From assembly GCF_017569225.1 (NCBI RefSeq), contig NZ_CP071868.1, positions 3,906,001 to 3,970,000 of the forward strand: a stretch of 64,000 bases of DNA, read 5' to 3'. This document shows positions 1 to 28,733 of this stretch, one piece after another; position 1 is the stretch's first letter, and every line of letters begins with the position of its first letter. The notes below the pieces were generated by a model. That model saw only the letters and a list, made by a program, of their open reading frames with translations, made no database searches and was not told the DNA's origin. The stretch is from Pengzhenrongella sicca. Lineage in GTDB: Bacteria > Actinomycetota > Actinomycetes > Actinomycetales > Cellulomonadaceae. Made by a program: the position numbers and the translations under genes.

Positions 1-438
1 CGCCTGGTTCTGCAGGGGGCACTCGCCTCCCTTGTCGCAGACGGGGCAGTCGAGCGGGTGGTTGATGAGCAGCAGCTCCATCACGCCGTGCTGCGCCTTG
101 TCGGCCATGGCCGAGCTGCGCTGGGTCTTGACGACCATGCCGGGCGTCGCCTCGAGCGTGCAGGACGCCTGCGGCTTGGGCATCGGGCGCAGGTTGCCCT
201 CGCGGTCGGGGGTGGCGACCTCGACGAGACACTGCCGACAGGCGCCGGCGGGCTCGAGCAGGGGGTGGTCGCAGAACCGCGGGATCTGGATGCCCACCTG
301 CTCGGCGGCCCGGATCACGAGCGTGCCCTTGGGCACCGCGACCTCGAGCTCGTCGATGTGGAAGGTCACCAGGTCCGCCGGCGGCGGGGTCGCCGGCATC
401 GTCGTGACAGCGCCGGTATTCGGCGTCGTGATGGTCAT
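1..438 (-). CDS. nuoG: NADH-quinone oxidoreductase subunit G, N-terminal part
   Basis: This is the first 146 codons of the large iron-sulfur subunit of complex I, which carries electrons from the NuoF flavin toward the quinone site; the rest lies beyond the left edge. The [2Fe-2S] domain has cysteines at about residues 56, 67, 70 and 93. It is followed by a [10 protein letters not shown] segment (Cys131, 134, 140) that ligates the N3 [4Fe-4S] cluster. The ATG overlaps the end of nuoF by four bases, so the two are translationally coupled. The roughly 20-residue Thr/Pro-rich lead before the fold is variable in this family. Identity is certain; only the C-terminal extent is unknown. Confidence 0.95.
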
Positions 439-1805
439 AGCACCGTTCCTGCCATGCGGCCGGCGAGCCGGACCGCGTCGTGCGAGGAGTCACGCGGGGG
501 GTAGGGGAAGAGCGCCGACGCCGCCGGGTCCAGCGGGCAGGCGCCCGAGGTGATGTGCGCCTCGAACTCCGCGCGGAAGTACTGCAGCCCCGAGGTCACC
601 GGCGAGGTCGCGCCGTCGCCGAGCGCGCAGAACGCGCGCCCGAGGATGTTCTCGCAGGTGTCCAGCAGCACGTCGAGGTCGTCCATCGTGCCCGTGCCCG
701 CCTCGATGCGGCGCAGCACCTGCTTGAGCCAGTAGGTGCCCTCGCGGCACGGGGTGCACTTGCCGCAGGACTCGTGCGCGTAGAACTCCATCCAGCGCGT
801 GATCGCGCGGACGACGCAGGTCGTCTCGTCGAAGATCTGCAGCGCGCGCGTGCCGAGCATCGACCCGGCCGTGGCGACGGACTCGTAGTCCAGCGGGATG
901 TCGAGGTGCTCGGCGGTGAACAGCGGGGTCGAGGAGCCGCCGGGGGTCCAGAACTTCAGCTCGTGGCCCTCGCGGACCCCGCCGGCCAGGTCGAGCAGCT
1001 CGCGCAGCGTGATGCCGAGCGGCGCCTCGTACTGCCCGGGCCGCGTCACGTGCCCCGAGAGCGAGAACAGCCCGTGGCCGCTCGAGCGCTCGGTGCCCAT
1101 CGACCGGAACCAGTCGACGCCGCCGCGCACGATGCCGGGCACCGACGCGATCGACTCGACGTTGTTGACGACGGTGGGGCGGGCGTACAGCCCCGCGACG
1201 GCGGGGAACGGGGGCTTGAGTCGCGGCTGGCCGCGCAGGCCCTCGAGCGAGTCGAGCAGCGCCGTCTCCTCCCCGCAGATGTAGGCGCCCGCGCCGGCGT
1301 GCACCGTGATCTCGAGGTCGTACCCGGTGCCCATGATGTCGGTGCCGAGGTAGCCGGCCGCGCGGGCCTCCTCGACGGCGCGCAGCAGGCGCCGGTACAC
1401 GTGCAGCACCTCGCCGCGCACGTAGATGAACGCGTGGTGGCACCCGATCGCGTAGGACGTGATGATCGCGCCCTCGATCAGGTACTGCGGGGTCGCGAGC
1501 ATGAGCGGGATGTCCTTGCACGTCCCGGGCTCGGACTCGTCCGCGTTGATGACGAGGTAGCGGGGGCCGCCGTCGGGCTTGGGCAGGAAGCTCCACTTGA
1601 GCCCGGTCGGGAAGCCTGCGCCGCCGCGGCCGCGCAGGCCGGAGTCCTTGACCGCGGCGAGCACCGTGGCGGGCTCCTGCGTGAGCGCGCGGCGCAGGCC
1701 GTCGTAGCCGCCGCCGGCCTCGTACGTCTCGAGGGTCCAGGACCGGTCGGCGTCCCACTGCGCACTGAGGACGGGCGCAAGGGTCGAAGCAGGCGGGGTG
1801 GCCAT
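435..1805 (-). CDS. nuoF: NADH-quinone oxidoreductase subunit F (NADH/FMN-binding)
   Basis: This 456-residue peripheral-arm subunit of complex I binds NADH and FMN and takes hydride from NADH. The Gly-rich motif [10 protein letters not shown] (about 59-68) shapes the FMN/NADH pocket. [13 protein letters not shown] (Cys347, 350, 353) with Cys393 ligates the N3-type [4Fe-4S] cluster. The length fits the family. The start is the ATG sharing one base with the nuoE stop (TGATG junction); a longer upstream reading frame only shadows nuoE. It overlaps nuoG by four bases. Products act on the cytoplasmic face of the membrane together with NuoE and NuoG. Confidence 0.97.
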
Positions 1806-2635
1806 CAGGACTCCTTCGAGGTGGAGGTCTGGGTCGTCGCGGACGCGTCGGCGGGCGTCGTGACGGGCCGCTCGGCGCTCGACTGCTCGCCTCCGGTGAC
1901 GGGCGTGGCGCCCGCCGCGGTCGCGGTGGCAGCGGGCGCGGTGGTAACAGGCGCGGCGTCGTCGGCGGGGAAGGCCGGCGCGGCCCACCCGCGCTCCTTG
2001 GCGAGCACCGTGCCGCGCTGCGTGGCGACGCCGGCCCCGATCCCCTCGTCGGCGCGACCGTCGGAGAACCCGGCGAGCACGCGCGACATCTGCTTGAACG
2101 TGCACACGCTGTCCGCACCGCGGGTCGGCGCGACCGGCTCGCCGGCGCGCAGCTGGTCGACCGTGGCCCGCGCGGAGTCGGGCGTCTGGTTGTCGAAGAA
2201 CTCCCAGTTCACCATCACCACGGGCGCGTAGTCGCACGCCGCGTTGCACTCGATGCGCTCGAGCGTGACCTTGCCGTCGTCGGTCGTCTCGTCGTGCCCG
2301 ACGCCGAGGTGCTCGGACAGGCCGTCCCAGATGGCGTCGCCGCCCATCACCGCGCACAGCGTGTTGGTGCAGACCCCGACGGTGTACTCACCGTTGGGGT
2401 GCCGCTTGTACTGCGTGTAGAACGTCGCGACGGCCGAGACCTCGGCCGTCGTCAGGCCCAGCTCGTCGGCGCAGAACGCGATGCCCGTCGGGCTCACGTA
2501 GCCGTCTTCCGCCTGCATCAGGTGCAGCAGCGGCAGCAGGGCCGAGCGCGGCTGTGGGTAGCGCGCCACGATCTCGCGGGCCTCGGCCCGCAGCCGGGTC
2601 ACCTGCTCCGCGTCGAATCCGTTGTCATGCGTCAT
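1805..2635 (-). CDS. nuoE: NADH-quinone oxidoreductase subunit E
   Basis: This is the 24-kDa thioredoxin-like ferredoxin subunit of complex I, 276 residues. The four ligands of the [2Fe-2S] cluster are in order: CTNTLC gives Cys89 and Cys94, CNAAC gives Cys130 and Cys134. The core ends near residue 165. Beyond it are about 110 extra residues, first a stretch with CTFKQMSRVLAGF and then an Ala/Thr/Pro-rich low-complexity tail. That makes it much longer than the enterobacterial protein; long tails occur in actinobacterial NuoE. TGATG junctions link it to nuoD upstream and nuoF downstream. Confidence 0.96.
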   Translation of the reverse strand: MTHDNGFDAEQVTRLRAEAREIVARYPQPRSALLPLLHLMQAEDGYVSPTGIAFCADELGLTTAEVSAVATFYTQYKRHPNGEYTVGVCTNTLCAVMGGDAIWDGLSEHLGVGHDETTDDGKVTLERIECNAACDYAPVVMVNWEFFDNQTPDSARATVDQLRAGEPVAPTRGADSVCTFKQMSRVLAGFSDGRADEGIGAGVATQRGTVLAKERGWAAPAFPADDAAPVTTAPAATATAAGATPVTGGEQSSAERPVTTPADASATTQTSTSKES

Positions 2636-4017
2636 CAGCGGTCCACCCCTCCGAGCACCGGGTCAAGCGAGGCCACCGAGACGACGACGTCGGCGATCTG
2701 GCCGCCCTCGCACATCATCGACACCGCCTGCAGGTTGTTGAACGACGGGTCCCGGAAGTGGGCCCGGTAGGGCCGGGTGCCGCCGTCGGAGACCAGGTGC
2801 ACGCCGAGCTCCCCGCGGGGGGCCTCGACGCTCTGGAACACCTGCCCGGCGGGCACGCGGAAGCCCTCGGTGACGAGCTTGAAGTGGTGGATCAGGGCCT
2901 CCATGGAGGTGCCCATGATCTCCTTGATGTGATCGAGCGAGTTGCCCATGCCGTCCGAGCCGATCGCGAGCTGCGCCGGCCAGGCGATCTTCTTGTCGGC
3001 GACCATGACGGGGCCGGGGCCGATCAGCTGGAGCCGGTCGAGCGCCTGCTCGACGATGTGCATCGACTGGTAGCACTCCTCCAGGCGCAGGCGGATGCGG
3101 CTGAACGCGTCGCCCTCCGTCGCCGTCGGGATGTCGAAGTCGTACGTCTCGTACCCGCAGTACGGCTCCGACTTGCGGACGTCGTAGGGCAGGCCCGCCG
3201 AGCGCAGCACGGGGCCGGTCACGCCGAGCGCCATGCACGCGGTCAGGCTGAGGTTGCCGACGCCGACGGCGCGCGCCTTGAGGATCGGGTTGGCGAGCAT
3301 CAGGTCCTGCAGCTGGCTCAGCGAGTGCTTGATGCCGACGATGGCCTCGCGGACGTTGTCGAGCGCGCCCGGCGGGATGTCCTGGGACACGCCGCCCGGG
3401 CGGATGTACGCGTGGTTCATGCGCAGCCCGGTGACGAGCTCGAAGATCCGCAGGACCTGCTCGCGGCCGGTGAACCCCGAGGTCATGATCGTCGTCGCGC
3501 CGAGCTCGTTGCCCGCGGTCGCCAGGCACACGAGGTGGGAGGAGATGCGGTTGAGCTCCATCATGAGCACGCGGATGACGGTCGCGCGCTCGGGCACGTC
3601 GTCCGTGATCCCGAGCAGCTTCTCGACCGCCAGGCAGTACGCGGTCTCCTGGAACAGCGGGGCCACGTAGTCCATGCGCGTGCAGTAGGTCACGCCCTGG
3701 GTCCAGGTACGGAACTCCATGTTCTTCTCGATGCCGGTGTGCAGGTAGCCGATGCCGGCCCGCGCCTCGGTGACGGTCTCGCCGTCGATCTCGAGCATGA
3801 GCCGCAGCACGCCGTGGGTGGACGGGTGCTGGGGTCCCATGTTGACGACGATCCGCTCCTCGCCGAGGCGAGCGGCCTCCTCGGCGATGTCGGACCAGTC
3901 GCCGCCGGACGCCTCGAACATGGGGGCGTCACCGACGGTGGAGTCGACGATGTGGGCGGTCGCGTGCGGGGTCGCGCCTGTCGGCGCGCCGCCGCGGGGT
4001 GCCTTCGATGCAGCCAT
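2635..4017 (-). CDS. nuoD: NADH-quinone oxidoreductase subunit D (49-kDa)
   Basis: This 460-residue subunit forms much of the quinone-reducing chamber of complex I with NuoB. The signature GPQHPSTHG is present near residue 60, and the C-terminus ends in the family-typical DPVLGGVDR. The first ~45 residues are a variable lead. The ATG at 4017 shares one base with the nuoC stop. In-frame sequence upstream of that ATG is nuoC read in another frame and was excluded. In this organism the electron acceptor is presumably menaquinone, because the men genes surround the operon. Confidence 0.96.
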
Positions 4018-4799
4018 CAGTTGTACGACCTCCGCTGGTCCGGCGGTGGGATGGTGGCGCCCTTGTACTCCACCGGGATCCCGCCGAGGGGATAGTCCTT
4101 GCGCTGGGGGTGACCGGGCCAGTCGTCCGGCATCTCGATCCGGGCCAACGCGGGGTGGCCGTCGAACACGATCCCGAAGAAGTCCCAGGTCTCGCGCTCG
4201 TGCCAGTCGTTCGCCGGGTAGACCGAGACGGTCGAGGGCAGGTGCGGGTCGGCGTCGGACACGGCGACCTCGAGGCGCAGCCGGCGGCTGTGCGTGACCG
4301 AGGTGAGGTGGTAGACGGCGTGCAGCTCGCGGCCGGTCTCGTGCGGGTAGTGCACGCCCGAGACGCCGAGGCTTAGCTCGAACCGCAGGTCCTGGTCGTC
4401 GCGGAGCGCCTGGCAGACCTCGACGAGGTGGGCGGCGGTGACGAAGATCGTGAGCTCGCCACGATCGACGACGATCTTCTCGACCGCCTCGGCGAACGGC
4501 GTGCCGTCGGCCTCGAGCACCTCGGCGAGGATGTCGACGCACCGGTCGAACCAGCCGCCATAGGGCCGCTCGCTCGGGCCGGGCAGGACGATCTCCCGCA
4601 CCAGGCCGCCGTACCCGGACGTGTCGCCGGGGCCGTCCGCGCCGAACATCCCGGTCCGGACGTCGACGACGTCGATCGGCTCGCGGCTCTCGCGCGCGGG
4701 GACGGCCGGGGCGTGCTGCTGCTGGGCGAGCTCGCTGCTCACGTGCGTGAGGGAGTCCTTCTCGACGGGTGAGGCGTCGAGGCGCTTGTCGTCGCTCAC
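4017..4799 (-). CDS. nuoC: NADH-quinone oxidoreductase subunit C (30-kDa)
   Basis: This 260-residue connecting subunit of the complex I peripheral arm contains the 30-kDa family signature [20 protein letters not shown] near residue 200, followed by a GGIPVEYKG tail. The first ~60 residues are a hydrophilic lead longer than in enterobacteria. I chose the GTG at 4799 because it overlaps the nuoB stop in a GTGA junction, matching the tight coupling along this operon. nuoC and nuoD are separate genes here, not fused as in E. coli. Confidence 0.95.
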
Positions 4800-5347
4800 C
4801 GCAGGAGCCCCGTCTGGTGCGAGGTCGGCGTCGCGGCGAGCGCCGCGGCCTCGGCCGCGCGGGTCGCCTCGGCGCGGTTGACGCCGAGGGGCTCGTGCTG
4901 GATCTGGTCGTGCAGCGCGAGGATCGCGTTGATGAGCATCTCGGGCCGCGGCGGGCAGCCCGGCAGGTAGATGTCGACGGGCACGACGTGGTCGACGCCC
5001 TGCACGATCGCGTAGTTGTTGAACATGCCGCCCGACGACGCGCACACGCCCATCGACAGGACCCACTTGGGCTCGGCCATCTGGTCGTAGACCTGGCGCA
5101 GCGCGGGGGCCATCTTCTGGCTCACGCGGCCGGCGACGATCATGAGGTCGGCCTGGCGCGGCGAGGCGCGGAAGACCTCCATACCGAAGCGAGAGATGTC
5201 GTAGCGGGAGGCGCCCGTGGCCATCATCTCGATGGCGCAACACGCGAGCCCGAACGTGACCGGCCAGAGCGAGCCCTTGCGGAAGTAGCCCGCGAGGTTC
5301 TCGACCGTGGTCAGCAAGAAACCTGACGGTGCCTCTTCGATGCCCAT
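4796..5347 (-). CDS. nuoB: NADH-quinone oxidoreductase subunit B (N2 cluster)
   Basis: This 183-residue subunit ligates the terminal [4Fe-4S] cluster N2 that reduces quinone. All four ligands are visible: the tandem pair Cys36-Cys37 in [10 protein letters not shown], Cys102 in GVCASSGG and Cys131 in LPGCPPRPE. The last ~30 residues are an Ala-rich tail outside the conserved core. The gene starts 47 bases after nuoA and overlaps nuoC by four bases. Confidence 0.97.
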
Positions 5348-5394
5348 CTACGCCTGCTCTCGAGCTGCTGTGGTCCGTGCGGTCGGTGCGATCG

Positions 5395-5757
5395 TCATTC
5401 CCATTCGAAGCCGCCCCGGCGCCACTCGTAGATGAACGGCACCGTGATCAGGGCGAGGAAGCCGAGCATCGCGATGAGCCCGAACATCGCGAGCTCCGTG
5501 AAGTTCACGGCCCACGGGTAGAGGAAGACGACCTCGATGTCGAAGATGATGAACGTCATGGCGACGAGGTAGTACTTGACCGGGAACCGGCCGCCACCGA
5601 TCGCCAGCGGCGTCGGGTCGATCCCGCACTCGTAGGCGTCGAGCTTGGCGCGGTTGTAGCGCTTCGGGCCGATGATGGCGCTTGCGCCGACACCGCCGAG
5701 GGCGAGTACCGCCGCGACCGCCATCATCACCAGGATGGGGACGTAGGGATTGGTCAT
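5395..5757 (-). CDS. nuoA: NADH-quinone oxidoreductase subunit A
   Basis: This 120-residue membrane subunit of complex I sits next to the quinone site. Three hydrophobic segments (about 8-28, 62-82 and 90-110) and the family motif around YECGIDP, with [22 protein letters not shown], are all present. It begins 52 bases after the end of the geranylgeranyl-reductase-family gene on the same strand. The nuo operon therefore appears to be transcribed together with that gene. Confidence 0.96.
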
Positions 5758-5809
5758 CGGGAGCCTCTCCTACAGGGACCGGCGGCGCAGCCGGCGGGGA
5801 TGGTCGTGC

Positions 5810-7105
5810 TCATGCGGCGGGTGCCAGTCTGCTCAGGCCGGCGATGACCCGGTCCACCATGTCGCCGCCGTGCGGCTCGTAGCAGTCCGAGAGCAGCTTC
5901 AGCGTGAATCGCATGATCAGCGGCCGGGGCAAACCGTACCGTGTGCAGATCCGCATCACGTGCGGGTGCTCGATGATCTTCACGAAGTAGCGGCCGAGCG
6001 TGTAGTACCCGCCCAGGTCCGCACGGATCAGCCGCGGGTAGGTCTCGAGCGCGCGCTCGCGCGCGGCGTCGCTGGTCCGCGCGCGCGCCTGCACGATCGC
6101 GTCGGCGGCCGTCCGGCCGGCCTGCATCGCGTAGGCGATGCCCTCGCCGTTGAACGGGCTGACCATGCCGCCGGAGTCGCCCACGAGCATCAGCCCGCGC
6201 GTGTACAGCGGCGTGCGGTTGAAGCCCATCGGCAGCGCGGCGCCGCGCAGCGGGCCGACCTGGTTCTCGGGCGTGAACTCCCACTCGGCCGGGGCGTTCG
6301 CCATCCACTTCGCGAACAGGTCCTTGTAGTCGACCTTCGTCGCCGCGGCGGTCGAGCTCACGCTGCCGAGTCCGACGTTCGCGGTGCCGTCGCCGAGCGC
6401 GAAGATCCAGCCGTACCCCGGCATGAGGTTCGACTTGTGCGGCTCGCCGTCCCACAGCTCGAGGTGGCTCTCCATCATCGTGTCGTCCTGGCGCGGCGTC
6501 GTGAAGTACGTCCGCACGGCTACGCCCATCGGCCGGTCCAGCCGCTTCTCGAGGCCGAGCGCGAGGCCGAGGCGGGCGGACACGCCGTCGGCCGCGATGA
6601 CGACCGGGGCGCGATAGGTGACCTCGTCGCCCGCGCGACGGCCGGCGTCGTCGACGGGACGAGCGGTGACGCCGACGACGCGGCCTGTGCGCTCGTCGAG
6701 CAGCGGGCCGGTGACGTTGGTCCGCTCGATCAGCTTCGCGCCGGCGGTGACGGCGTGCTGGGCGAGCGCGTGGTCGAGGCTCATGCGGGTGCGGGCGAGG
6801 CCGAAGGACGGGTAGCTCGACAGCTCGGGCCAGGGCAGCTCGATGCGGTGGCCGCCGCCGACGACGCGCAGGCCGGTGTTGCGGATCCAGCCGTCCTCGG
6901 GCTTGAGCGACATGCCCATCGCGACCAGCTCGCGCGTCGCGCGCGGGGTCAGGCCGTCGCCGCAGATCTTGTCCCGGGGGAAGGCCGCCTTCTCCAGCAG
7001 GAGGACGGTCAGGCCGGCGGCGGCGCAGTAGTAGGCGGCCGACGAGCCGGCCGGACCGGCCCCGACGATGATGACGTCCGCGTCATCGGTCTGCATCTGA
7101 CTCAC
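5810..7105 (-). CDS. Geranylgeranyl reductase family FAD-dependent oxidoreductase (MenJ-like)
   Basis: This 431-residue flavoprotein has an N-terminal dinucleotide-binding GAGPAG (15-20) and the KICGDGLTPRA motif (47 on) of the geranylgeranyl reductase family. The family saturates isoprenoid double bonds; mycobacterial MenJ partially reduces the menaquinone side chain. Position directly upstream of nuoA and beside menG makes menaquinone tail reduction the likely role, but this is inferred from context. The GTG start at 7105 is 37 bases downstream of a Rex-type operator. An internal ATG four codons later is an alternative start. Confidence 0.85.
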   Translation of the reverse strand: MSQMQTDDADVIIVGAGPAGSSAAYYCAAAGLTVLLLEKAAFPRDKICGDGLTPRATRELVAMGMSLKPEDGWIRNTGLRVVGGGHRIELPWPELSSYPSFGLARTRMSLDHALAQHAVTAGAKLIERTNVTGPLLDERTGRVVGVTARPVDDAGRRAGDEVTYRAPVVIAADGVSARLGLALGLEKRLDRPMGVAVRTYFTTPRQDDTMMESHLELWDGEPHKSNLMPGYGWIFALGDGTANVGLGSVSSTAAATKVDYKDLFAKWMANAPAEWEFTPENQVGPLRGAALPMGFNRTPLYTRGLMLVGDSGGMVSPFNGEGIAYAMQAGRTAADAIVQARARTSDAARERALETYPRLIRADLGGYYTLGRYFVKIIEHPHVMRICTRYGLPRPLIMRFTLKLLSDCYEPHGGDMVDRVIAGLSRLAPAA

Positions 7106-7141
7106 CTCGTCGCCTCGCTCTATCCCTCTGGGTGAAGCTCT

Positions 7142-7159
7142 TTGTGAAGATGTTCACGC
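7142..7159 (-). promoter_or_regulatory. Candidate Rex operator
   Basis: Read on the minus strand this is CGTGAACATCTTCACA plus flanks. It matches the actinobacterial Rex consensus TGTGAAC-N3-TTCACA at all but the first base. It lies just upstream of the reductase-nuo operon, and rex itself is at 27784-28467. Confidence 0.75.
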
Positions 7160-7190
7160 ACTCCAGCGCCCCACTGTAGTCGCGGGACGT

Positions 7191-7892
7191 TCACAAATCC
7201 TCCGGGCGAGTACCGCGGTGCAGGGCCACGATGCCGCCGGACAGGTTGCGGTACGCGACGTCGCGCCAGCCGGCCGTGCGCAGCAGGCGCCCGAGCGCCC
7301 GCTGGTCGGGCCAGGCCCGGATCGACTCCGCGAGGTAGGTGTACGCATCGGTCTCCTTCGAGACCGCGCGGGCGACCGTCGGCAGCGCCCGCATGAGGTA
7401 GTTGTCGTAGACCGTGCGCAGCGGCGCGAACGTCGCGTGCGAGAACTCGCAGACCACGAGCCGGCCGCCCGGGCGGGTCACGCGGAGCATCTCGCGCAGC
7501 GCGCGGTCGGTGTCCGCGACGTTGCGCAGCCCGAACGAGATCGTCACCGCGTCGAACGAGGCGTCGGCGAAGGGGAGCTTCGTGGCGTCGCCAGCGACGA
7601 AGCCGAGGTCCGGGCGGCGGCGCTTGCCGACCTCGAGCATGCCGAACGAGAAGTCGCAGGGCACGACCTCGACGCCGGCGTCGGCGAGCGGGCGGCTCGA
7701 CGTGCCGGTGCCGGCGGCCAGGTCCAGCACGCGCTGACCAGGGCTGACGCCGAGGGCCTTGATCGTGGCCGTCCGCCAGCGCCGGTCCTGGCCGAGCGAC
7801 ATCACGTCGTTGGTGAGGTCGTAGCGGCGGGCGATGCCGTCGAACATCTCCGCGACCTCGTGGGGCTGCTTGTCCAAGCTGGCGCGCGACAT
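7191..7892 (-). CDS. menG: Demethylmenaquinone methyltransferase
   Basis: This 233-residue class I methyltransferase performs the last step of menaquinone synthesis, SAM-dependent C-methylation of demethylmenaquinone. The SAM-binding motif [11 protein letters not shown] is at about 54-64. The UbiE/MenG signatures [20 protein letters not shown] (N-terminal) and [15 protein letters not shown] are both intact. The reading frame starts at an ATG only 73 bases from the divergent menF. A Rex-like half site overlaps its 3' end at 7189-7196. Ubiquinone is not expected here, so the menaquinone assignment is favoured. Confidence 0.93.
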
Positions 7893-7951
7893 GTGTCCAT
7901 GATCTCAGGTTCACGGGACTGCTCGCTGCGCGCGGGCGCCGCGGGCAGACC

Positions 7952-7957
7952 TACGCT
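7952..7957 (+). promoter_or_regulatory. -10-like hexamer of menF
   Basis: TACGCT ends five bases before a GTG (7963) and eight before the ATG (7966). The transcript is probably leaderless or nearly so, starting at one of these codons. Confidence 0.5.
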
Positions 7958-7965
7958 TGCACGTG

Positions 7966-9276
7966 ATGTCTACGCTCACGACCCCCGCTGCCGGCGCCGT
8001 CCCACGACCCCTCGTGGTGCGCACGGTCGCCATCGACGACCCCGGCGACCTGCTGGCCTTGCTGCCCGACGGCGCGCCGCTGGCCTGGGTCCGGCGCGGC
8101 GACGGCATCGTGGGCTGGGGCGAGGTGCTGCGCGTCCCGGTGCGCGGGCCGGACCGGTTCGCCGCCGCCGAGGACGCCTGGCACGAGGTCCTCGCGCACG
8201 CGATCGTGCGCGACGAGGTCGACCTGCCCGGGACCGGACCGGTGGCCTTCGGGTCGTTCGCGTTCGACGAGGACTCCCCCGCCGGCGGCGTCGTGGTGAT
8301 CCCGCGCGTCGTCGTCGGGCGCCGCGGCGGTCAGGCCTGGCTCACGACCATCGACACGGGCGCGACGATCGGCGCGACGCCGACGCTGGCGACCGCCGTC
8401 GGCGAGCGCGCGCCGGTCACGGCGCCGGGTCCGGTGAGCTACTCCGACGGGGCGGTCGACGATGCGGGCTGGCGCGACGTCGTCACGCGCTGCGTGGCCG
8501 CGATCCGCGCCGGCGAGGTCGAGAAGGTCGTGCTCGCGCGCGACGTCCGGGCGCACGCGGCGGAGCCCGTCGACGCGCGCTGGGTGCTCGGGCGGCTCGC
8601 GGGTGGGTACCCCTCGTGCTGGACGTTCAGCGTCGACGGCATGCTCGGTGCGACGCCCGAGCTGCTCGTGCGCAGCGACAAGGGCCTCGTGACCTCGCGC
8701 GTGCTCGCCGGCACGATCCGCCGCACCGGCGACGACGCGGCCGACCTCACCCGCGCGGCGATCCTCGCGCACTCCTCAAAAGACCTGGAGGAGCACGAGT
8801 ACGCGGTGACCTCGGTGGCCGACTCGCTCGCGCCCTTCTGCTCGTCCACGAACGTGCCCGACGTGCCGTTCGTGCTGCACCTGCCGAATGTGCTGCACCT
8901 GGCCAGCGACGTGACCGGGGTGCTGCGGGCGGCGGTTGCGGGCCACAGCCCGGCGCCGTCGAGCCTCGCGCTCGCGGCGGCGCTGCACCCCACCGCCGCC
9001 GTGTGCGGCACGCCGACCGCCGCCGCCCGCGCGCTGATCGCGCGCGTCGAGGGCCTGGAGCGCGCGCGCTACGCCGGCCCGGTCGGCTGGTTCGGCGCCG
9101 ACGGTGACGGTGAGTGGGGCATCGCGCTGCGCTGCGCCGAGATCGACGCGGCCGACCCCCGCGAGATCCGGCTGTTCGCCGGCTGCGGCATCGTCTCGGC
9201 GTCCGACCCGGAGTCCGAGCTCGCGGAGTCCGAGGCCAAGCTGGTCCCGATGCGCCAGGCGCTCGCGACCGACTGA
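7966..9276 (+). CDS. menF: Isochorismate synthase
   Basis: This 436-residue chorismate-binding enzyme converts chorismate to isochorismate, the entry step to menaquinone. The N-terminal ~150 residues are variable. The C-terminal chorismate-binding domain contains AGEVEKVVLARDV, GATPELLVR, SRVLAGTIRR, AALHPTAAVCGTP and YAGPVGWFG. Siderophore or salicylate pathways use homologous enzymes, but the men genes on both sides favour menaquinone. The ATG is preceded in frame by GTG and TTG codons, so the exact start is uncertain by up to three codons. Confidence 0.9.
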   Translation: MSTLTTPAAGAVPRPLVVRTVAIDDPGDLLALLPDGAPLAWVRRGDGIVGWGEVLRVPVRGPDRFAAAEDAWHEVLAHAIVRDEVDLPGTGPVAFGSFAFDEDSPAGGVVVIPRVVVGRRGGQAWLTTIDTGATIGATPTLATAVGERAPVTAPGPVSYSDGAVDDAGWRDVVTRCVAAIRAGEVEKVVLARDVRAHAAEPVDARWVLGRLAGGYPSCWTFSVDGMLGATPELLVRSDKGLVTSRVLAGTIRRTGDDAADLTRAAILAHSSKDLEEHEYAVTSVADSLAPFCSSTNVPDVPFVLHLPNVLHLASDVTGVLRAAVAGHSPAPSSLALAAALHPTAAVCGTPTAAARALIARVEGLERARYAGPVGWFGADGDGEWGIALRCAEIDAADPREIRLFAGCGIVSASDPESELAESEAKLVPMRQALATD

Positions 9277-13447: not shown

Positions 13448-15214
13448 CTACCCGAGCGCCGCGTCCACGGCCGCCGCGATGCGCTCGTGCAGCGCCCGCC
13501 GCCGCGCCCGGTCGACGCGCACCTCGACGACGCTGAGCCCCGGGCCCGGGACCGCGAGCGCCACCTGGAGGTCCCCCGGATCCCGGACCACCTGGTGCCG
13601 CACGCCGTAGCCGGCGCACAGCGCGCCCAGGTCGGCGCCGTGCGGGGTGCCGAAGACCCGCTCGAACACCGCCGCGTGCTCGGGCTCGCCGTGCTCGAGG
13701 GTCGAGAAGATCGAGCCGCCGTCGTCGTTCGCGACGACGATCTGCAGGTCCGGCTCGGGTTCGAACGGTCCGCGCAGGAGCCCTCCGACGTCGTGCAGGA
13801 ACGTGAGGTCGCCCATCAGCGCCCGGACCTGCCGGCCGGGGCTCGCGAGCGCGACCCCGATCGCCGTCGAGACGGTCCCGTCGATGCCGGCGAGCCCGCG
13901 GTTCGAGTACACCGTCGGCGGCTCGGCCCAGCCCGCCACGAGGTCGAGGTCGCGCACGGGGTTGCTCGAGCCGACCACGAGCACGTCCTGCGGCCCGGAT
14001 GCCCGGGCGACCTCGCGCGCGAGGACCGGGCCGCGCACGCGGGTGCCGGCGCGCGACCGCCGCCCGCGCGGCGCCGAGTCGAGGACCCGGTCCAGCGCGG
14101 CGACCGCGAGCGACCCCGCCTCCTGCCAGCGCCCGAGCCACGCCTGCGCGGACGCCGCCGGGTTCGCGCCCGCGACCAGCGCGCTGCCCTCGACGACCAC
14201 CGACGCGGCACGCCGGCTCGCGTCCGGCCACGCCGCCCCGCGCGGCGCGACGACGCAGACCTCGACGTCGTCGCGCGCGAGCAGCGCCTGCACGGGCCGC
14301 GACAGCGTCACCCGGCCGACGACGACGACGCGCCGCACGGCTCCGCCGAGCTCCGGGCGCGCGAGCAGCAGCCGGTAGGCGCCGATCGCGTGGCTGCCGC
14401 CCCGCGCGCGGGACGACGGTTCGGCGAGCAGCGGCCAGCCGTTGGCCTCCGCGATCTCGCGCGCGAGCGGCCCGGCGCCGTCGCCGGCCACCACGACGGT
14501 CCCGCCGTCACCACCCGCGCTCCACCTGGGCCCGCCGCCGGGCGCGGCGCCCCGGCTCTGCACCGCGCTCAGGCCGGCCGACGACGGCGCGGGCCACGCG
14601 GCGTCGTCGACCCCGGGGCTGAGGGGCTCACGGAAGGAGAGGTTGAGGTGCACCGGGCCGGGGTCGCCGGTGCGCGCCCCGAGCGCGGCCGCCACGGCGC
14701 GGCTGGTCAGCTGGCGCAGGTCCGCGTGCTCGCCGGGCCGCCCGGTCGGCGCCGGGACGTCGGCGGCGAACCGGACCGCGCCGCCGTACAGGCCGACCTG
14801 ATCGGTCGTCTGGTTGGCGCCCGTGCTGCGCATCTCGTGCGGGCGGTCGGCGGTCAGCACGATCAGCGGGACGCCCGAGTGGTGCGCCTCGAGCACGGCC
14901 GGGTGCAGGTTCGCCGTCGCGGTGCCCGACGTCGTCACGATCGCGACGGGGCGGCCGGAGCCGCGCGCGAGCCCGAGCGCGAGGAAGCCAGCGGTCCGCT
15001 CGTCGATGCGCACGTGCAGTGTGATCGCGGGCGCTCCCGCGGGGCGCTGGCCGTCGGGCTCGGAGGCCTCCGCGAGCGCGTAGGCGAGGGGGGCCGAGCG
15101 CGAGCCGGGCGCGAGCACGACGTCGTGCACGCCGAGGCCGGCGAGCGCCTGCAGCAGGACGCGGGACGCCGCGATCGCCGGGCCGGGAACGGCACTGCGG
15201 CCGGCGTCGCTCAT
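13448..15214 (-). CDS. menD: 2-succinyl-5-enolpyruvyl-6-hydroxy-3-cyclohexene-1-carboxylate synthase
   Basis: This 588-residue ThDP enzyme joins isochorismate and 2-oxoglutarate. N-terminal features include VLAPGSRSAPLAYAL, the activating glutamate in RIDERTAGFLALGLA, and VTTSGTATANLHPAV. The C-terminal ThDP-binding half includes GLAGIDGTVSTAIG, LMGDLTFLHDVGG and VVANDDGGSIFS. The start is the ATG that overlaps the menC stop (ATGA). Frames extending further upstream are menC shadows. Confidence 0.94.
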   Translation of the reverse strand: MSDAGRSAVPGPAIAASRVLLQALAGLGVHDVVLAPGSRSAPLAYALAEASEPDGQRPAGAPAITLHVRIDERTAGFLALGLARGSGRPVAIVTTSGTATANLHPAVLEAHHSGVPLIVLTADRPHEMRSTGANQTTDQVGLYGGAVRFAADVPAPTGRPGEHADLRQLTSRAVAAALGARTGDPGPVHLNLSFREPLSPGVDDAAWPAPSSAGLSAVQSRGAAPGGGPRWSAGGDGGTVVVAGDGAGPLAREIAEANGWPLLAEPSSRARGGSHAIGAYRLLLARPELGGAVRRVVVVGRVTLSRPVQALLARDDVEVCVVAPRGAAWPDASRRAASVVVEGSALVAGANPAASAQAWLGRWQEAGSLAVAALDRVLDSAPRGRRSRAGTRVRGPVLAREVARASGPQDVLVVGSSNPVRDLDLVAGWAEPPTVYSNRGLAGIDGTVSTAIGVALASPGRQVRALMGDLTFLHDVGGLLRGPFEPEPDLQIVVANDDGGSIFSTLEHGEPEHAAVFERVFGTPHGADLGALCAGYGVRHQVVRDPGDLQVALAVPGPGLSVVEVRVDRARRRALHERIAAAVDAALG

Positions 15215-16179
15215 GCGTTCACCGTACTGACCGCGGCGAGGCGGTCCCGCCAGCGCGCCGCGACGTCGGGCGTGGCGGCCGCCGCGGCCAGGCCCGCGGC
15301 GTCGGGCACGGGCCGGCAGACCGCGATCGCGCCGCCGACAGGCAGCAGCGGGGCGGCGACGACGTCGGCCGTGAGCAGCTGCGCGGTCGCGAGCCCGCAC
15401 GCGTAGGGCAGGTCGGGCAGCGCGGCGGCGAGCGCGAGCCCGGCGGCGAGCCCGACGGATGTCTCTAGCGCCGACGACACGACGACCGGCAGCCCGACCC
15501 GCTCGGCCAGCTCGAGGCACGCCCACACGCCGCCGAGGGGCTGGACCTTGAGCACGACGACGTCGGCGGCCTCCGCGCGGACGACCGCGAGGGGGTCCTC
15601 GGCCCGGCGGATCGACTCGTCGGCCGCGATGAGCACGTGCGTGCGGCGGCGGACGGCCGCGAGGTCGGCGACGGTCGGGACCGGCTGCTCGGCGTACTCG
15701 AGCCCGCCCGCCGCGCGGTCGAGCACGCGCAGGCGGTCGATCGCGGTGTCGACGTCCCAGCCGCCGTTGGCGTCGATGCGGATCGCGCCGCCGGGCCCAA
15801 GCGCGTCGCGCACGGCCTCGAGCCGCGCGATCTCCTCGCCCACGCCCTGGCCCGGCTCGGCGACCTTCACCTTGGCGGTGCGGCAGCCGCCGGACGCGGT
15901 CACGATGCGGTGCGCGCGCTCGGCGTCGACGGCCGGCACGGTGACGTTCACCGGGATCTCGGTGCGGACGGCGGCGGGCCAGGGGGTGTCGGCGGCCTCC
16001 CGGGCGGCGCGCAGCCAGGCGGCCGACTCCGCGGCGTCGTAGTCCCAGAACGGGCTGAACTCACCCCAGCCCGCGGCCCCGCGCAGCAGCACGCCGTCGC
16101 GGACCGTGATCCCGCGGAACCGCGTGCGCAGGGTGATCGAGTAGACGTACGGGACGGGCGGCAGGTCGGTTGCGGGCAC
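15211..16179 (-). CDS. menC: o-Succinylbenzoate synthase
   Basis: This 322-residue enolase-superfamily enzyme dehydrates SHCHC to o-succinylbenzoate. The catalytic set is visible: Lys103 and Lys105 in TAKVKV, metal ligands Asp136 (RIDANGG), Glu164 (EQP) and Asp187 (ADES), and Lys211 (VLKVQP). The GTG start is five bases from a TACGCT hexamer. It is the first gene of the menC-menD pair and runs divergently from menB. Confidence 0.93.
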   Translation of the reverse strand: MPATDLPPVPYVYSITLRTRFRGITVRDGVLLRGAAGWGEFSPFWDYDAAESAAWLRAAREAADTPWPAAVRTEIPVNVTVPAVDAERAHRIVTASGGCRTAKVKVAEPGQGVGEEIARLEAVRDALGPGGAIRIDANGGWDVDTAIDRLRVLDRAAGGLEYAEQPVPTVADLAAVRRRTHVLIAADESIRRAEDPLAVVRAEAADVVVLKVQPLGGVWACLELAERVGLPVVVSSALETSVGLAAGLALAAALPDLPYACGLATAQLLTADVVAAPLLPVGGAIAVCRPVPDAAGLAAAAATPDVAARWRDRLAAVSTVNA

Positions 16180-27766: not shown

Positions 27767-27804
27767 AAGGCCGAGGTCGGCGCTCACGCGCCGGCGTCGG
27801 CCTT
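27767..27804. terminator. Terminator between yceI and rex
   Basis: aaggccgaggtcggcg pairs with cgccggcgtcggcctt (two mismatches). The right arm and loop include the rex stop codon and last codons, so the hairpin serves the convergent genes from within rex. Confidence 0.65.
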
Positions 27805-28467
27805 TCGGCTGTCGTGGAACGCCAGGATCTGCAGCTCCGAGCCGAGGTCGACGACCCGCAGGTCGACCTCCGGCGGCACCCGGAGCGAGCACGGCGCGAA
27901 GTTGAGCACGCCGGTCACCCCGGCCGCGACGGCCGCGTCGCACACGTCCTGCGCGACCTCGGCGGGCGTCGCGATCACCGCGATCGTCGCGCCGCTTGCG
28001 GCGACGACCCGCCCGAGCCGGTCGGCCGGCTGGACCTCGAGCCCCGCGACGGTCGTGCCCACGACCCGCGGGTCGGCGTCGACGAGCCCGACCACGGAGA
28101 AGTTCCGGCCGGCCAGCCCCGAGTAGTTCGCGAGCGCGTGGCCGAGGTGGCCGACGCCGACGATCACCACGTGCCGCTGGCTCGTCAGCCCGAGGGCGAC
28201 CGTCAGGTGCCGGCTGAGGTTGGCGACGTCGTACCCCACCCCGCGCGTGCCGTGGCTGCCGAGGAACGACAGGTCCTTGCGCAGCTGGGCCGACCCGACG
28301 CCGGCCGCGGCCGCGAGCGTGCTCGACGACGTCGTGCTGACCCCGTCGGCGGCGAACGCCGCGAGGGCGCGCAGGTACAGCGGGAGCCGGCTCACCGTCG
28401 CCGGCGGCACGCGCCGGGCCGACCGGCGCACGTCCACCGGCTCGCCCACGGCCCGCACGGCGGTCAT
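27784..28467 (-). CDS. rex: Redox-sensing transcriptional repressor Rex
   Basis: This 227-residue dimeric repressor senses the NADH/NAD+ ratio. The N-terminal winged helix has PPATVSRLPLYLRAL, STTSSSTLAAAAGVGSAQLRKDLS and GTRGVGYDV. The C-terminal Rossmann fold starts with VIVGVGHLGHALANY and contains FSVVGLVDADPRVVG and IAVIATPAEVAQDV. In actinobacteria Rex represses nuo, cytochrome bd and ATP synthase genes when NADH is low. A matching operator is present upstream of the reductase-nuo operon in this window. The ATG overlaps the glutaredoxin stop (ATGA). Confidence 0.95.
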   Translation of the reverse strand: MTAVRAVGEPVDVRRSARRVPPATVSRLPLYLRALAAFAADGVSTTSSSTLAAAAGVGSAQLRKDLSFLGSHGTRGVGYDVANLSRHLTVALGLTSQRHVVIVGVGHLGHALANYSGLAGRNFSVVGLVDADPRVVGTTVAGLEVQPADRLGRVVAASGATIAVIATPAEVAQDVCDAAVAAGVTGVLNFAPCSLRVPPEVDLRVVDLGSELQILAFHDSRKADAGA

Positions 28468-28733
28468 GGTCTCGGCGCGAGCGCGGCCGCGAGCCGGCCG
28501 GCGTCGATGCGCCAGTAGTCCCGCTGCACGCCGTCGACGAGCACGACGGGCACCTGCTCGCCGTACTCGCGCTGCAGCGCGCCGCCGTCGCGCACGGCCT
28601 CGGCGTCGATGTCGACCTCGGCCCAACCCGTGCCGGCCGCGGCGGCCACCGCCGCGACGATCACCCGGGCGTCGTCGCACAGATGGCAGCCGGCACGCCC
28701 GTACAGCACCACCCGCACCCCGTCGTCGGTCAT
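28464..28733 (-). CDS. Glutaredoxin family protein
   Basis: This 89-residue thioredoxin-fold protein (DUF836 type) has a CHLC redox motif at residues 16-19 (YGRAGCHLCDDA) and the cis-proline region QVPVVLVDG. Such small proteins commonly sit directly upstream of rex in actinobacteria; their partner is not established. It is the first gene of a two-gene unit with rex. Confidence 0.88.
   Translation of the reverse strand: MTDDGVRVVLYGRAGCHLCDDARVIVAAVAAAAGTGWAEVDIDAEAVRDGGALQREYGEQVPVVLVDGVQRDYWRIDAGRLAAALAPRP

Follow-up and report, generated by a model that had tools for sequence, protein, structure and literature searches.

The analysed DNA, here called the window, is a stretch of 64,000 nucleotides (positions 3906001-3970000) from the 4.395 Mb single-contig genome of Pengzhenrongella sicca. 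On its minus strand, menG is followed by a reductase gene and then by genes for complex I (Table 1). The earlier note on this sequence had put the reductase at the head of the nuo genes, and the order of reductase and nuoA proved correct in a domain scan. Beyond the window, two Proton_antipo_M subunits are encoded on the same strand, and the last of them overlaps a gene for polyprenyl-diphosphate synthase by 4 nt; the genes between nuoF and these were outside the domain scan. A terminator consensus scan of 5200-7960 revealed no terminator-like site. A chorismate-binding enzyme (PF00425) and menD-like and menC-like ORFs (translations judged by eye) are located near the operon at 7957-9276, 13448-15526 and 15211-16179, so that genes for the menaquinone head lie close to those for its tail.

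The reductase is 90% identical to its counterpart from Cellulomonas fimi strain SB. It had been described as a MenJ-like enzyme, and this holds at the level of the geranylgeranyl-reductase family (TIGR02032), but not at the level of the NCBIfam MenJ equivalog NF045655, against which it scores 232.8 bits with a cut-off of 700. The MenJ of Mycobacterium tuberculosis (Rv0561c) belongs to the geranylgeranyl-reductase family and has quinone genes as neighbours; the window protein shares the family with it, while staying under the equivalog cut-off. Menaquinone saturation is therefore a putative function of the window protein, assigned from its family and neighbours.

Table 1. Features of the menG-reductase-nuo region and the rex gene (window positions, except for the last gene of the unit)
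Feature	Position	Strand	Basis
menG (ubiE), demethylmenaquinone methyltransferase, upstream neighbour of the reductase	7191..7892	-	PF01209; NF001241 above cut-off
TTGTGAA half-site over the menG stop codon	7190..7196	-	sequence only
-10-like hexamer TACAGT, 19 nt ahead of the site start; candidate promoter element	7173..7178	-	sequence and conserved spacing
Candidate Rex operator (ROP), GCGTGAACATCTTCACAA on the minus strand, 13/14 to TYGTGAANNNNTTCACRA	7142..7159	-	sequence and conservation
FAD-dependent geranylgeranyl-reductase-family protein (MenJ-like), 428 aa, first gene of the unit	5810..7096	-	TIGR02032 above cut-off
nuoA	5395..5757	-	PF00507
nuoB	4796..5347	-	PF01058
nuoC inside ORF (ORF start overlaps nuoB; true start further downstream)	4017..5243	-	PF00329, residues 268-388
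nuoD inside ORF (true start further downstream)	2635..4542	-	PF00346, residues 347-635
nuoE	1805..2635	-	PF01257
nuoF inside ORF (true start further downstream)	435..2357	-	PF01512, PF10589, PF10531
Polyprenyl-diphosphate synthase, last gene of the unit, beyond the window	G000:C1:3894383-3895390	same strand as nuo	
rex, start codon uncertain (in-frame ATG at 28467)	27784..28518	-	NF003992 equivalog 314.5 bits, cut-off 226

The palindrome in the menG-reductase gap and the rex gene

The gap between menG and the reductase gene is 94 nt long and holds the palindrome TTGTGAAGATGTTCACGC at 7142-7159. Operators of Rex, a repressor responsive to the NADH/NAD+ balance, resemble TTGTGAA-N4-TTCACAA (in Streptomyces, TGTGAAC-N3-TTCACA), departing from it at few positions. 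As the earlier note had stated, the minus strand at 7158-7143 reads CGTGAACATCTTCACA, one mismatch from the actinobacterial Rex consensus TGTGAACNNNTTCACA; against TTGTGAANNNNTTCACAA the palindrome has two mismatches. The distance of 37 bases to the reductase given there applies to a GTG at 7105, but the likelier start is the ATG at 7096, which is preceded by GAGGTGA and lies 45 bases from the palindrome.

The consensus obtained here, TYGTGAA-N4-TTCACRA, equals the published Rex consensus with Y/R at two positions, in keeping with a Rex operator, and served for scoring. The palindrome scores 13 and is the sole position in the window to reach at least 12/14, while 0.15 matches per window are expected at 12/14 in Markov simulations (n=60) and none was seen at 13/14. 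When up to three mismatches are allowed, the window contains 3 matches against 3.01 expected. Such loose matches are at chance level and thus uninformative; only the one-mismatch quality is unusual. The whole genome (4.4 Mb) contains no perfect site to TYGTGAANNNNTTCACRA and four with one mismatch, of which the other three are all within ORFs (L007, L009, and L318 in an ORF of 218 aa). At one to two mismatches, 42 genomic matches were found against 2 in the reversed control, in the form of CGTGAAC...GTTCACG-like palindromes. Among 15 of the 42 that were inspected, 12 are in ORFs, the window site is intergenic, and two with two mismatches (L322 and L327) are perhaps intergenic; L013 (two mismatches) lies between two divergent ORFs. 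The surplus over the reversed control is probably codon-driven, and therefore a genome-wide Rex regulon was not drawn. Palindromes borne by ORFs are a trap for motif scans of such GC-rich genomes.

The -10-like hexamer ahead of the palindrome has a conserved spacing. Of 138 loci, 134 have TANNNT at -23 to -12 relative to the start of the site, and five other intervals (106-138 loci) give 0 to 3. This geometry implies a transcription start around 7164-7167, and the operator would then span about +6 to +25. A sigma-70 consensus scan of 5200-7960 detected no promoter, and the window has no good -35 element because the gap is short and the region is the end of menG. In several Cellulomonadaceae, CAGACA or AAGACA was seen by eye 17 nt further upstream of the -10-like element. 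The half-site over the menG stop codon is possibly a second contact, or possibly chance.

The rex gene had been placed in the same window, and it is indeed there. Residues 36-234 of its product match the solved Rex structures 3ikt, 1xcb, and 2dt5 (E 3e-42 to 4e-42). Upstream of this rex the best match is 9/14, that is, no Rex site. Among 50 rex loci of relatives, an upstream site of at least 12/14 is present in eight. Seven are TTGTGC-type sites scoring 12-13/14, from Kineococcus (L108, L113, L133, L134, and L141) and Saccharopolyspora (L099 and L132); L115 is the only one of the other 43 to reach 12. Rex autoregulation thus seems to be lineage-specific. The available part of a paper on rex of Saccharopolyspora spinosa contains no mention of nuo (PMC4172946).

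Co-occurrence of the site with rex

In total, 226 reductase loci were compared (80 named and 146 further, after dropping the three exact duplicates L261, L310, and L314). The named relatives are the best 80 of 166. At the class level, the best 30 loci of 133 genomes with a match were taken, the window's own included, along with 60 further loci hand-picked to span families; at the order level, 59 of 241 genomes with a match were hand-picked by rex status and family. The sample is therefore non-random. The 300 nt upstream of each located reductase start were scanned, and a site was called at 12/14 or more. The reductase was regarded as directly followed by nuoA when the nuoA match lay -60 to 600 nt from the end of the reductase match; four loci with matches flush with the reductase end (L027, L030, L050, and L069) were assigned as linked by hand. 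Absence of rex was taken from the search tables, and for G236, G307, and most genomes of groups f40, f43, f44, and f48 it means that they are not among the matches listed.

Absence of the site among relatives had been named beforehand as an outcome that would refute the predicted operator, and the prediction came through this test. In rex-bearing genomes, a site scoring 12/14 or better is present at 139 of 146 reductase-nuoA loci (143 of 146 at 11/14 or more), versus 2 of 52 in rex-less genomes (4 of 52 at 11/14 or more). The site is thus mostly present with rex and mostly missing without it, as expected for a Rex operator. Of the two good sites in rex-less genomes, one is from a MAG (L040) and the other from an assembly of 1310 contigs (L229), where rex may be absent from the assembly data rather than from the genome. 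As controls, a scan of equal length within the reductase gene gave no match of 12/14 or more in 170 loci, and 4 of 3400 shuffled upstream sequences reached this score. The rex-bearing exceptions are L091, L093, and L216 with 9/14 or less, and L020, L054, L066, and L302 with 11/14; in the genome of L216, the surroundings of nuoA (L248) are also without a site.

Near kin inflate these raw counts, and therefore a tree-aware pair test was performed. The reductase tree of 198 rows includes 11 changes of rex status. Supported branches yield nine independent pairs; on average, the site follows rex in 5.0-5.4 of them, goes against rex in 0.0, and shows no difference in 3.6-4.0, with a borderline median p of 0.0625 in the tree-aware sign test. 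Leaving out the two fragmentary genomes removes two non-differing pairs. The direction of co-loss is consistent on the tree, although the power of the test is limited. Joint loss is clearest in L259 (group g91, in the family of the window's own genome), which is without rex and site, both being present in the five rows nearest to it. Among the actinobacteria sampled, site and rex are mostly kept or lost together, which offers a clear example of a predicted operator decaying when its regulator is missing.

Ten loci from Demequina and Demequinaceae (L077, L078, L080, L081, L082, L084, L085, L087, L090, and L092) have no menG match beside the reductase, unlike most loci. Demequina is said to use demethylmenaquinone, which would fit the missing neighbour.

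Reductases parted from nuoA and alternative readings of the site

In some genomes the reductase gene is apart from nuoA. In group f22, which we infer to be Streptomyces, this holds for the nine genomes examined, all with a site before nuoA (9/9) and none with a site before the reductase (0/9). In five of the nine (L241-L245), the 18-mer before nuoA, TTGTGACCTGCTTCACAT, is identical to the site of the Rex footprint of Streptomyces avermitilis, either strand considered. One f39 genome (L219 and L249) likewise has the site with nuoA and none at the reductase. Altogether, 18 reductases from rex-bearing genomes are unlinked to nuoA and without a site: the nine Streptomyces-like ones, L219, L221, L224, L225, L232, and four from group f42. 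Among the genomes with site-free unlinked reductases, G082 and G268 have no NuoA match and G179 has a divergent one only. Genome G104 carries two reductase copies, the nuoA-linked L149 with a good site and the unlinked L232 without one.

The reverse situation is seen in Kineococcus, which is placed in group f45 because the rex places of f45 match those of the named Kineococcus loci. Five named loci (L072, L073, L075, L076, and L079) have no orthologous NuoA (three gave no match, and two a protein of about 30% identity), and polyprenyl-diphosphate synthase directly follows the reductase (by Pfam in two, by eye in three). The site precedes the reductase-polyprenyl synthase pair in 5/5 of these and in 3/3 further f45 loci, NuoA having been searched in the named five. 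Four f42 loci (L282-L285) are the opposite of Kineococcus, with the reductase followed by polyprenyl-diphosphate synthase and rex present, and no site. L034 is a site-bearing unlinked locus in which the sequence stops after the reductase.

These loci bear on the possibility that Rex binds the site but matters for nuo only, with the reductase carried along because the gene order is conserved; we regard this as possible, with the odds rather against it. The site stays with nuoA when the two genes are parted in the Streptomyces-like and f39 genomes, and the unlinked reductases L221, L224, L225, and L232 and the f42 reductase-polyprenyl synthase loci are site-free. Furthermore, six f20 loci (L157, L165, L168, L187, L189, and L235), which have a 14/14 site before the reductase, contain a second site of 11-12/14 between reductase and nuoA, so nuo may also have its own promoter there. 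The parted loci and the second f20 sites speak for nuo as the chief target. Kineococcus, by contrast, keeps the site without an orthologous NuoA, and its quinone genes seem to be targeted independently of nuo; in addition, the site precedes the reductase in the 139 linked loci, where both genes would be under it if they are cotranscribed.

A rival binder of the palindrome would be a cAMP receptor protein of the CRP/GlxR type (TGTGA-N6-TCACA), in which case the unit would respond to carbon status rather than to NADH/NAD+; this is quite improbable. The similarity of the motifs is real: YGTGA-N6-TCACR fits 123 of the 139 sites and the exact TGTGA-N6-TCACA fits 50, the plus strand of the window, TGTGAAGATGTTCACG, is one mismatch from the latter, and the genome encodes a cNMP-binding protein. 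However, 32 genomes were searched, of which 28 lack rex, and every one of the 32 has a cNMP-binding domain above the cut-off (the match in G070 is weak and interrupted), yet a site scoring 12/14 or better occurs in just 2 of the 28. The site does not persist with CRP-type genes; rex-less genomes keep cNMP proteins yet are mostly without it, which is evidence against CRP within the scope of this control, which concerns the cNMP domain rather than GlxR orthology and excludes 28 order-level rex-less loci. Moreover, the inner A7 (81%) and T12 (92%), which CRP is not known to need, are conserved across the sites, 49% of which have C at position 2. The counterpart before nuoA of S. avermitilis was footprinted with Rex, according to the accessible text of that study (PMC5355995).

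Chance, with which the matches at up to three mismatches in the window would agree, is almost certainly not the origin of the palindrome, whose place and spacing are kept across the class-wide sample and which is mostly lost with rex; the conservation already refutes it.

Known systems and the proposed mechanism

Rex control of nuo had been described in the earlier note as known in Streptomyces, and it is documented for S. avermitilis in the part of the report available (PMC5355995). The Rex operator of nuoA1-N1 is found immediately upstream of nuoA at 147 nt from the ATG, with a footprint from -42 to -16 (PMC5355995). It has the regulator family, the motif, and a complex I operon as target in common with the system predicted for the window; in contrast, the site of the window precedes the reductase as first gene of the unit and follows a conserved -10-like element. 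In the Streptomyces-like loci L240, L242, L244, and L245, TAGGAT occurs 17-21 nt ahead of the nuoA site, and thus the published nuoA1 start of S. avermitilis and the geometry of -10 element and site disagree. The cydA1 operator of S. avermitilis, protected from -3 to +25 and with an extra TTGTGAA half-site upstream, has a layout similar to the one predicted for the window, but a different target, cytochrome bd (PMC5355995). The main text of that paper, as far as available, does not mention menaquinone or geranylgeranyl (PMC5355995).

The ubiE-ggr-nuo locus of Actinomyces oris has the same neighbours as the window, and Rex was not found in the available part of the paper describing it (PMC5478893). 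The family of this species is probably group f40, which we infer to be Actinomycetaceae. No f40 genome is among the rex matches listed, and the site is missing in 13 of 13 f40 loci (one of which duplicates a named Georgenia locus). Thus, Rex control of nuo and the ubiE-ggr-nuo order were already known from the accessible parts of these two sources (PMC5355995, PMC5478893). The Rex site before the reductase-nuo unit and the pattern of its loss are apparently new; no report of either, or of Rex control of this reductase, was found in the literature searched, and an earlier description is possible.

The palindrome is best read as a predicted Rex operator just downstream of a putative transcription start in the menG-reductase gap, at which Rex would hinder the polymerase until NADH/NAD+ rises and the unit is made; the probability of this reading is put at about 0.87. 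At low NADH, Rex, either with NAD+ or free of NADH, would occupy 7142-7159, as S. avermitilis Rex does its operators. From the geometry, bound Rex would hinder RNA polymerase and block either start or escape. A rise in NADH/NAD+, as in oxygen limitation, would release Rex; both the sign and the ligand response are predicted by analogy with S. avermitilis. Judging from the gene order, complex I would then rise jointly with the reductase, which would saturate the quinone tail, and with polyprenyl-diphosphate synthase, which would set the length of that tail. The predicted cotranscription from reductase to synthase is consistent with the gene order and with the scan of 5200-7960, and the position of the site at the head of this gene order suggests that Rex may control complex I together with quinone chemistry.

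More tentatively, at slightly less than even odds, the arrangement of Rex, reductase, nuo, and polyprenyl synthase could be an old actinomycete layout, in which one NADH/NAD+ sensor serves complex I, quinone saturation, and quinone length. Streptomyces, the genus of the characterised Rex, would then deviate in that its quinone gene slipped out, and Kineococcus would be the reverse, with complex I gone and Rex guarding the quinone genes. The great age of the layout is deduced from its breadth rather than from a rooted reconstruction. The distribution also suggests that a Rex regulon derived from Streptomyces may miss the reductase as a target. To our knowledge, the reason for the partial saturation of menaquinone tails in actinobacteria is poorly understood. 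If the reductase and the tail-length enzyme share the NADH/NAD+ sensor of complex I, tail chemistry would be a regulated respiratory variable.
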